This document shows positions 34,481 through 38,207 of a DNA stretch of 43,684 bases, in pieces (the first letter of the stretch is position 1; the number at the start of each line of letters is the position of its first letter). The translations under genes and the position numbers were made by a program. The notes beneath the pieces are model-generated. The model was not told the origin of the DNA. It searched no databases and worked only from the letters and a program-made list of their open reading frames with translations. Origin of the DNA: an uncultured Anaerotignum sp. (GTDB lineage: Bacteria > Bacillota > Clostridia > Lachnospirales > Anaerotignaceae); assembly GCA_944381385.1 (NCBI GenBank), contig CALWKZ010000073.1, forward strand, positions 1 through 43,684, written 5' to 3'.

Positions 34481-34845
34481 TGTGCGTCATAACAGAACCC
34501 AAAAAATGGGAATTTTCTCTTAGAAAAAACGGGCCAAAACTGAAAAAATAGAGGGTTTTTCAAAAATAGAAGAAAAACCCTTCTGTGCGTTTTTGCAAGC
34601 CATAACGCTGCGTTCTTTAATTTTTTGGGAGAGTTTTCCCCATACGAAAAAAGTAAAATGTACTAAAACAAATACATGAAAATTGTGAGGAAAAACCATA
34701 AAAAAAAGAAATAAATTGTTTTTGACGGAATTTCTGCAAAAAAACAGGGATTTACGGAAAAAATGCAGAACCAAAAACGCGGCAGGAGGGGGAAACTTTA
34801 CAGAAATAAACCGCCAAAATATGGATAAAAATAGGTTTTTTCGTA
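34481..34845. other. AT-rich non-coding stretch upstream of the permease promoter
   Basis: No gene is supported; open frames on both strands are of lysine- or phenylalanine-rich low complexity. A 10-bp inverted repeat, AGGGTTTTTC (34552-34561) with GAAAAACCCT (34572-34581), is followed on the minus strand by a T-rich tract. Confidence 0.4.
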
Positions 34846-34875
34846 TTGACTGTCCATTTGAGGTATCCATTATAT
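34846..34875 (+). promoter_or_regulatory. Promoter of the APC permease
   Basis: TTGACT (34846-34851) and TTATAT (34870-34875) are 18 bp apart. The start of transcription near 34882 would leave a leader of about 215 nt. Confidence 0.6.
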
Positions 34876-34884
34876 TGAGAAATA

Positions 34885-35100
34885 ACAATAGAATATCGCC
34901 CGAAGACGCTCGGTTTTTCCTCCCTTTTGTGAAGGAAGTGCAGAGCTGAGTATGACCGCGGATACTGGCGGCGATATTTTACGGTTCATTTATGTTTTTG
35001 CCGGACGCTATCGCGGCGACTGGGTAAAACAACATTTGGTTCTTAGGAACACGGCAATTATTTACTCCATTTATATTATGATACAAAAGGAGGTTTGTCT
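34885..35100 (+). promoter_or_regulatory. Riboswitch-like structured leader of the APC permease
   Basis: A 9-bp helix joins AATATCGCC (34892-34900) and GGCGATATT (34970-34978). It encloses three small hairpins: CCGA/TCGG (34900-34913), TTCCT/AGGAA (34917-34937) and AGTAT/ATACT around 34949-34966. The 3' strand of the closing helix, GCGATA (34971-34976), can pair instead with TATCGC (35009-35014) further down, which makes two mutually exclusive folds. The ribosome binding site AAAGGAGGT lies at the end of the leader. This is the outline of an aptamer with a switching helix. I recognise no known class. Confidence 0.5.
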
Positions 35101-36549
35101 ATGTCTGGAAAACAACAACAAGAAGGTGCGTTTAAGAAGGATTTGCGTAAGATTGACATTTGGGCGTTAGCCCTTGGCGCAATCATCGGTTGGGGCTGCT
35201 TCGTTATGCCCGGTACTAACTTCCTGCCCAAAGCGGGCCCCATTGGTTCCATTGTGGGTCTGATGCTGGGTGCCTGCATTATCTGTATCATCAGTATCAG
35301 CTACGGCTACATGATTCGGAAATTCCCTCTTTCCGGCGGTGAGTTCGTATATGCTGACTCCGCTTTCGGCAAAAAACACGCTTTTGTCTGCGGCTGGATG
35401 ATCGTTTTGGCATACTGGTCCCTGATCCCTCTGAACTCTACGGCTCTTGCCATGGTTTCTCGGTATATCATTCCCGGTTCGCCTTTCCAGGTAGGTTACC
35501 TGTATACCATTGCCGGCTGGGACGTATATCTGGGTGAGATCGCTCTGGCGTATGCGTTTATCATTGGTCTGGGTATTGTCAACATCAAAGGCGTTAAAAG
35601 CGCCGGCTGGTTCCAGACACTGGTTGCGGTTGCCCTGTTTGGTTCCGTTATGTTCGTATTGATAGGCGTATTGCTGACAAAACCTGACTTTACCAATCTG
35701 CAGCCTCATTTCCTTTCCACAGAAGATGGCGGCAGCAAATTTGCACAGATCATGGCCATCGTTGCATTTACACCATATTGCTTCGTAGGTTTTGACTGTA
35801 TCCCGCAGGCGGCGGAGGAATACAGCTTCTCCCATAAGGCTGCTTTGGGACTGATGATTACGGCGATCCTCATCGGCGGTATCATCTATTCCGCAGTTGT
35901 ATTCGTTACATCTGTTGTAGATCCTTGGCAGACTATGCTGGCTTCCAATCCTGACTGGGCGACTGGCGAAATGATTTTGAAATCTATCGGTTATGTGGGC
36001 GTATTCTTTATCGGTCTGGCGATGCTGTGTGCCGTTGTTGCTAGTATCAACGGTTTCTACCTGGCATCCAGCCGTCTGCTGTACTCCATGTCCTATGCAG
36101 ACGCTCTGCCCGCAAAATTTGCGCACCTGTCTCCTCAGGGCACACCGAAAACAGGTATTATCTTCATGATGGTTCTGGCGCTGATCGCTCCTTGGTTCGG
36201 CCGTCAGGTACTGACATGGATCGTAGATATGACTTGTGTAGGCGCTGGTATGGGCTTTACATATACCTGCGCATCTGCAGCAGTTGTTGCGAAAAGAGAC
36301 GGCGAAACAAAACAGATGTGGATCAGTATCCTGGGTGTTGCGGTAGCTTCCGTATTCCTGATCATTACATTTGTACCCGGCATGCCCGGCTTCCTGTCTG
36401 TACCTTCCTTCATCATTCTGGGTGTTTGGGTGGTTATCGGTATCATCTTCTACTTCTCCATCAAGCAGCGTTATATCAATGGTAAGTGGAAGGGAGTATC
36501 CGTTGAACAGATTCTGTATTCTAAGATGAAAGAAGAAGGCAAGATCTGA
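35101..36549 (+). CDS. APC-family amino acid permease
   Basis: A 482-residue integral membrane protein with about 12 helices. The first helix LALGAIIGWGCFVMPGTNFLPKAGP has the unwound GxG-type motif of the APC superfamily, followed by YGYMIRKFPLSGGEFVYADSAFGKKHAFVCGW and AFTPYCFVGFDCIPQAAEEYSF. ATG 35101 is used because AAAGGAGGT precedes it by six bases. Probable substrates are amino acids; the next gene cluster degrades beta-alanine, so alanine or beta-alanine is a fair guess but not shown by sequence. It has its own promoter, an unusual structured leader and a strong terminator. Confidence 0.9.
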   Translation: MSGKQQQEGAFKKDLRKIDIWALALGAIIGWGCFVMPGTNFLPKAGPIGSIVGLMLGACIICIISISYGYMIRKFPLSGGEFVYADSAFGKKHAFVCGWMIVLAYWSLIPLNSTALAMVSRYIIPGSPFQVGYLYTIAGWDVYLGEIALAYAFIIGLGIVNIKGVKSAGWFQTLVAVALFGSVMFVLIGVLLTKPDFTNLQPHFLSTEDGGSKFAQIMAIVAFTPYCFVGFDCIPQAAEEYSFSHKAALGLMITAILIGGIIYSAVVFVTSVVDPWQTMLASNPDWATGEMILKSIGYVGVFFIGLAMLCAVVASINGFYLASSRLLYSMSYADALPAKFAHLSPQGTPKTGIIFMMVLALIAPWFGRQVLTWIVDMTCVGAGMGFTYTCASAAVVAKRDGETKQMWISILGVAVASVFLIITFVPGMPGFLSVPSFIILGVWVVIGIIFYFSIKQRYINGKWKGVSVEQILYSKMKEEGKI

Positions 36550-37291: not shown

Positions 37292-38155
37292 CTACGCTTT
37301 TTTTACGGGGATGATTATTTTTGTGATATGGTTTTCCTCGTTACCAATATCAACTGGGGAAATGACGTATTCTTCTGAAATAGGACCAGAAATTTCATAG
37401 CCGTGTTGATTGAGCCATTTAATGGCTTTGGCGTGGACCTGAATGATCTCGTCATTCTTTCCGACGTGGATGGCGGTTACCGCCGTAAAACCGCCGAATT
37501 TTTTAAATTCGGGGCTGGGTCTGGATTCGCTAACCTGAATACTGGCTTCCAGATCGCAGTCCTTGTTGAAAAATTGCTCCAGAGGAGCGTTATGATAAGT
37601 TAGGATAACGGGACCGGTGACGTTCAGATTTTGCTTGCTTGCCATTTCAAACAGCTCAAACCAGCGGTCTACCGATACATCTGCATTGTGATAATCAGAT
37701 TTGATTCTGCGTGTGAAGATTACGTCTGTGACAGGGATTTTTTCAATGCGTATGCCGCCGTCATCTGCATTTTCCGTATCGGCTGCCTGAAGGATCATAT
37801 CGCCTTCGTGGAGCCGTTCCAGAAGCCGTTCACCGACGGCATACTGCTCTTGAAGCTCATGGATCGTTTGAGAAATTTCGTCCATCCTCGTAACGATACA
37901 CTGTTCCATGACAGTAGTATCGCTATTATAAATGATGGACTGAATCTCTTTCAGAGAAACGCCCAGCAGCCGCAGCTTCCGAATGATGAACAGGGTCAAA
38001 AGCTGGGTATGTTCATAATAGCGATAGTTACTGCCTTCTTTTCGGTACTGCGGAACAAGCAGACCGATCTTATCGTAATAACGTAGTGTTTTTACCGGCA
38101 CATTACAAAGTGAGGATACTTTGCCTATGGAATAATAATTTGAGCGCTCAGACAT
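37292..38155 (-). CDS. MerR-family regulator with GyrI-like effector domain
   Basis: A 287-residue transcription activator/repressor. The N-terminal MerR domain (6-75) is textbook: YSIGKVSSLCNVPVKTLRYYDKIGLL and the wing NYRYYEHTQLLTLFIIRKLRLLGVSLKEI. A dimerising helix (about 85-120) leads to a C-terminal GyrI-like/BmrR-type ligand-binding domain (about 130-287) containing VILTYHNAPLEQ, FKKFGGFTAVTAIH and ISEEYVISP. ATG 38155 is chosen because AAAGGAG precedes it and the upstream residues are not MerR-like. It has its own promoter and lies directly downstream of the CoA-transferase gene on the same strand, so it may control the beta-alanine genes. The effector is unknown. Confidence 0.9.
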   Translation of the reverse strand: MSERSNYYSIGKVSSLCNVPVKTLRYYDKIGLLVPQYRKEGSNYRYYEHTQLLTLFIIRKLRLLGVSLKEIQSIIYNSDTTVMEQCIVTRMDEISQTIHELQEQYAVGERLLERLHEGDMILQAADTENADDGGIRIEKIPVTDVIFTRRIKSDYHNADVSVDRWFELFEMASKQNLNVTGPVILTYHNAPLEQFFNKDCDLEASIQVSESRPSPEFKKFGGFTAVTAIHVGKNDEIIQVHAKAIKWLNQHGYEISGPISEEYVISPVDIGNEENHITKIIIPVKKA

Positions 38156-38207
38156 GGCTGTTACTCCTTTCTTCGTAGTGTATCCAGTGGGTTTTTGCCC
38201 ATAGCTT

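Follow-up and report, generated by a model that had tools for sequence, protein, structure and literature searches.

Sequence support for an uncatalogued structured leader RNA ahead of an amino acid permease gene in Anaerotignum and its relatives

The plus-strand gene at positions 35101-36549 of the DNA analysed here, a 43,684-nucleotide stretch from an uncultured Anaerotignum sp. (the window), has a domain match to the APC-family amino acid permeases (PF13520). Its leader, positions 34885-35100, was described in a first-pass annotation as riboswitch-like: a closing helix around three hairpins, of no recognised class, whose 3' strand could pair alternatively with a segment further downstream. 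The locus raises two questions, whether the leader is a structured RNA at all and, if it is, whether the structure senses a metabolite or does something else for the permease mRNA. The permease is nearest among solved structures to transporter 5oqt and reaches no NCBIfam equivalog cut-off, and alanine or beta-alanine as its substrate, the suggestion of the annotation, is neither supported nor excluded.

The closing helix in the window and in related leaders

The two inner strands of the closing helix (P1), 34892-34900 (AATATCGCC) and 34970-34978 (GGCGATATT), are both present as annotated and are exact reverse complements, forming the longest Watson-Crick stem, of 9 bp, within 34885-35100. Outward growth through a G-U, an A-U and a U-A pair extends P1 to 12 bp, with its 5' strand at 34889-34900 and its 3' strand at 34970-34981 (both plus strand), and in the full leader its pair probability is 0.93-1.0. 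As a feature of a single sequence the stem is not significant, a stem of at least 9 bp arising in 19 of 300 dinucleotide shuffles (6%) of the same leader. P1 is accepted as real because of comparative evidence, namely its occurrence in relatives and an arm-swap test.

A protein search returned 20 permease loci. In leaders L004-L010 and L012 a matching helix was found just 3' of the promoter; a variable hairpin comes next, and after it a hairpin with an nnCCGCGG loop. A covariance model built from nine leaders matched 10 of the 58 family genomes once each, at E ≤ 1e-4 or better and in every case ahead of the orthologous APC permease; L027 (genome G021), which lay outside the model, scored 84 bits, and its match is at the homologous position. 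Permease orthologs occur in 12 of the 58 genomes, including all ten that bear the element, and the two family permease loci without it belong to Chakrabartyella (L011) and to a MAG (L013). Samples of 246 genomes at order level and 391 at class level yielded no further match outside the family. Two candidates were rejected: a model match at L034 (E 0.08), which is terminator-like and comes from a genome without the permease, and L003 in genome G044, a chance 29-bp DNA match at an unrelated gene. The element-free Chakrabartyella leader (L011, 2895-2960) carries two simple stable hairpins at its predicted 5' end.

Conservation within the leader is uneven. Between the window and its sister species (L004) the permeases are 99% identical and the leader cores only 67% identical; P1 and the second enclosed hairpin, P3, are the same in the two, while the sequences of the first, P2, are unrelated. 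Pairing was compared between the arms of each species' own helix and arms taken from another species, better pairing of a species' own arms indicating compensatory change. For P1 the own arms scored 88.0 against 68.5±6.0 for swapped arms (p=6e-4, 10 species), so that the annotated closing helix is borne out and the compensatory changes that the annotation had proposed to look for among related leaders are present. A stable P1 is absent in L007, and P1 is poor in L009. Column-wise covariation in an unguided alignment is weak, with 80.6% of cells paired versus 78.4±1.0% (19/500), and a covariation score computed on the unguided alignment of ten sequences was no higher than in shuffles; the whole comparison comprises 10 sequences only, a size at which column counts are modest.

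The Rfam scan proposed in the annotation agrees with its statement that the leader falls into no known riboswitch class. At gathering score there was no match in the window or in four relatives, a loose search gave none with E ≤ 5 in 34700-35250, and the L010 and L006 leaders produced chance matches only. A search of the literature for Anaerotignum riboswitches or for the permease returned nothing relevant, and the permease leader is not mentioned in the text of two published ncRNA surveys that a word search covered. T-box leaders likewise stand ahead of amino acid genes and contain an ACCGCGG-like string; unlike them, the leader here has no T-box match in Rfam and no terminator, and the string lies inside an 8-nt hairpin loop. 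Judged on its sequence record, the element is a real, lineage-specific structured leader RNA, uncatalogued and with a structure that is evolutionarily supported in ten related gut or anaerobic bacteria.

The three-way junction and the conserved P3 loop

P1 closes a three-way junction with P2 and P3, so that the annotated arrangement of hairpins enclosed by a helix holds, with two conserved hairpins in place of the three proposed. An A/G-rich linker and P2 occupy 34901-34947 (plus strand), the outer stem of P2 being formed by GCTC at 34908-34911 with GAGC at 34943-34946. The sequence of P2 is unconserved even in comparison with L004, yet the hairpin itself is retained (swap test 69.9 vs 46.1±6.8, p=0.001). 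P3, AGTAT-GACCGCGG-ATACT at 34949-34966 (plus strand), has an 8-nt loop at 34954-34961 whose form, nnCCGCGG, is kept in 8 of 10 species. Its stem covaries, the fifth pair being A-U in the window, G-C in L004 and U-A in L005, and its own arms scored 61.1 against 29.1±6.8 when swapped, with 0 of 20,000 swaps reaching the observed value. Apart from the P3 loop and the A-rich linker, few unpaired bases are conserved.

When the leaders are folded one by one, 8 of 10 sequences have P1 and P3 in the minimum fold or close to it, the exceptions being L007 and the P1 of L009. P3 is part of the minimum fold in L004, L005, L006, L008, L010, L012 and L027; in the window it lies within 1.1 kcal/mol of the minimum, losing to a longer P2, and because of this cost the relatives illustrate the fold better than the window does. 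Of the two strands, the plus strand gives the more stable fold in 9 of 10 cases.

These comparisons bear on the reading in which P1 is a functionless inverted repeat, inherited or due to chance. The frequency of 9-bp stems in shuffled leaders and the weak column-wise shuffle counts speak for such a repeat, and compensatory pairing in all three helices, a loop conserved at 40-79% leader identity and a constant distance to the promoter (see below) speak against it; the reading is already disfavoured, and we regard it as extremely unlikely.

The palindromic CCGCGG, lying near a promoter region that is itself conserved, would also be compatible with an operator at the DNA level, in which P1 and the palindrome are protein-binding sites and the RNA fold is incidental. 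In an unbiased offset scan, however, the P3 stem is shifted against CCGCGG (left 2/right 0), and an asymmetric stem, two bases off the palindrome centre, is expected of an RNA loop and not of a symmetric DNA operator or dyad. The P3 arms moreover vary in sequence yet remain complementary, G-U pairs occur in both P1 and P3, and the plus strand is the favoured one, all of which make a DNA operator very unlikely.

A different use of the same palindrome would be pairing between RNA molecules. With two 5' unpaired bases followed by a six-base palindrome, the P3 loop resembles retroviral dimer-initiation loops in layout; its six bases are self-complementary in 10 of 10 species if G-U pairs are allowed (CCGCGG in eight, UCGCGG in L027, AUAUGU in L006). 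P3 might be a homodimerising (kissing-loop) or trans-pairing hairpin, its six loop bases joining it to a second transcript or to some other RNA. The copy number of an mRNA is low for dimerisation, however, the L006 loop lies within an AU repeat where palindromes arise easily, no partner RNA was found, and stem-loops with the P3 stem recur no more often than a reversed control pattern. We consider this reading improbable.

Repeats of the P3 motif elsewhere were as frequent as those of the reversed control, apart from rRNA-like copies (GTATTACCGCGGCTGC), which we take to be the 530-loop region of 16S rRNA. Positions 34950-34961 of the window (GUAUnnCCGCGG) resemble the reverse complement of this conserved region; the likeness is probably a coincidence, as the flanks vary in other species.

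Promoter, regulator and the question of switching

A -35 element, a 19-bp spacer and a -10 element precede the permease at all 12 family loci. In the window the promoter is TTGACT-19 bp-TATATT (34846-34876, plus strand), with the -35 at 34846-34851 and the -10 at 34871-34876, and in the seven genomes where the near-consensus pattern matched, it does so only ahead of the permease. From this conserved promoter the transcription start is predicted at about 34883, and not downstream of 34978, where according to the annotation a start would have spoken against the leader structure. The distance from the -10 to P1 is 12 nt in nine species and 11 nt in L009, though the intervening bases vary; by this measure the predicted transcript reaches P1 after about 5 nt.

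MerR-family regulators are described as activating promoters with 19-20 bp spacers (PMC8113463), and the permease promoter is like these in its 19-bp spacing, its dyad-like sequence and the presence of a regulator gene nearby; the likeness accounts for the control of transcription, not for the RNA fold, and binding at this promoter is putative. The candidate activator in the window is a MerR-family regulator with a GyrI-like domain (37295-38188, minus strand). Orthologs with at least 60% identity accompany the permease in 12 of 12 genomes, so that MerR-type spacing and a MerR-family regulator are found together throughout, and the regulator gene adjoins the permease in most loci. At L005, L006, L008, L009 and L010 the gene order is CaiB-type CoA-transferase, MerR, permease, both genes lying upstream of the permease; the window has its MerR and CaiB genes downstream, on the opposite strand. 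Given this promoter type and the nearby MerR/GyrI gene, substrate-responsive control need not come from the RNA.

Whether the RNA nevertheless switches depends on what follows P1. The annotated competitor TATCGC (35009-35014, plus strand) does offer a 6-bp complement to GCGATA, and that part of the proposal stands; the mutual exclusivity of the two pairings is not conserved, the motif having no equivalent at that position in L004, ahead of a permease that is 99% identical, and not being kept in the other leaders. Across 10 species the P1 3' strand paired with its own downstream leader (74.3) much as with those of other species (71.6±4.3, p=0.26); limited to the first 100 nt downstream, the same comparison gave p=0.04. 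The pairing with TATCGC is probably due to chance. No intrinsic terminators were found in the leaders of the window and seven relatives, although several relatives, the window not among them, have a weak hairpin and a U-run just after P1 (e.g., GGCC-GGCU-TTTTT in L010). The leaders show no common sequestration of the Shine-Dalgarno sequence, whose accessibility varies among them without pattern, and no conserved small ORF for a leader peptide. Separately, CUCC at 35065-35068 can pair with GGAG at 35089-35092 of the Shine-Dalgarno sequence, as it can in L004; this is not evident in the others.

A new metabolite riboswitch, in which the junction, the A-rich linker and the P3 loop bind the permease substrate or a related compound and the stability of P1 controls downstream transcription or translation, would explain several of these features. 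The leader resembles the purine, TPP and similar three-way-junction riboswitches in having a P1-closed junction with two arms beside a transport gene, and its fold is conserved and covaries across 10 species, as that of an aptamer should; the lack of an Rfam match would suit a new class, and the weak hairpins and U-runs of some relatives also count in its favour. It differs from those riboswitches in having no Rfam match, no recognised binding-pocket bases and no conserved alternative helix or terminator, and in being confined to one gene in one lineage. None of the usual expression platforms (exclusive helix, terminator or Shine-Dalgarno sequestration) was found as a shared feature of the leaders compared, few unpaired bases are conserved, the MerR regulator can supply substrate control, and an aptamer has no need of a constant distance from the promoter. 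Of the first-pass description, then, a structured, permease-specific leader without an Rfam family remains, while its expression platform and metabolite sensing are unsupported; a metabolite riboswitch is on balance unlikely.

A candidate role at the 5' end and further features of the leader

With its fixed 5' position, its replaceable arm and no platform, the element fits a metabolite aptamer less well than a 5'-terminal structure acting on decay or access. The reading that we prefer, with a probability of roughly 0.4, is a structured 5'-terminal cis-acting leader that governs the stability or recognition of the mRNA and makes contact through the P3 loop. A MerR-family activator would turn on transcription at the 19-bp-spacer promoter, and the transcript would begin about 5 nt before P1, so that P1 would seal the 5' end of the mRNA. 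The sealed end may slow 5'-end-dependent decay or otherwise set the lifetime of the permease mRNA, and the conserved P3 loop may contact a protein or RNA partner able to modulate decay, the leader thus acting in cis once transcription has begun. Computation shows four things behind this proposal: how the leader folds, that the fold has evolved by compensatory change, that it is tied strictly to a single permease, and that it keeps a set distance to the promoter.

Bacterial mRNAs can carry 5'-terminal stabilising stem-loops, such as those of the Bacillus aprE leader and of E. coli ompA. The permease leader is similar to these in having, within several nucleotides of its predicted 5' end, a stable structure with an arm of variable sequence; it differs from them in that the structure is a three-way junction and one loop sequence is conserved, and its stabilising effect is putative. 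A plain stabiliser would not require a conserved loop sequence, which counts against our preferred reading, and the conserved sequence of the P3 loop calls for a partner, protein or RNA.

More speculative, and rather unlikely in our estimate, is the idea that the permease mRNA, already under MerR control, begins with an RNA of a new class that adds a second layer of control, either by kissing of the self-complementary P3 loop or by a junction that binds a ligand. If such a two-layer arrangement were true, protein would decide transcription and RNA would decide the lifetime of the message or the pairing of transcripts. The locus poses in compact form the question why a transporter regulated by a protein, with a promoter laid out as a MerR switch, keeps an RNA structure too, and the leader RNA has a defined gene, testable helices and a species range that includes cultured Anaerotignum species.

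The region between P1 and the start codon has features of its own. Leaders L005-L008, L010 and L027 contain about 75-110 extra nt there, with semi-conserved strings (CCTTCG..., GGCAGGGTTCTC...) that are missing in the window. A further box, GCAATTATT at 35054-35062 (plus strand) in the window, occurs in 9 of the 10 element-bearing leaders; this GCAATWAT-like box is absent from L009 and from the element-free loci L011 and L013, and is shared with the window by L004-L008, L010, L012 and L027, at 42-77 nt before the start codon.
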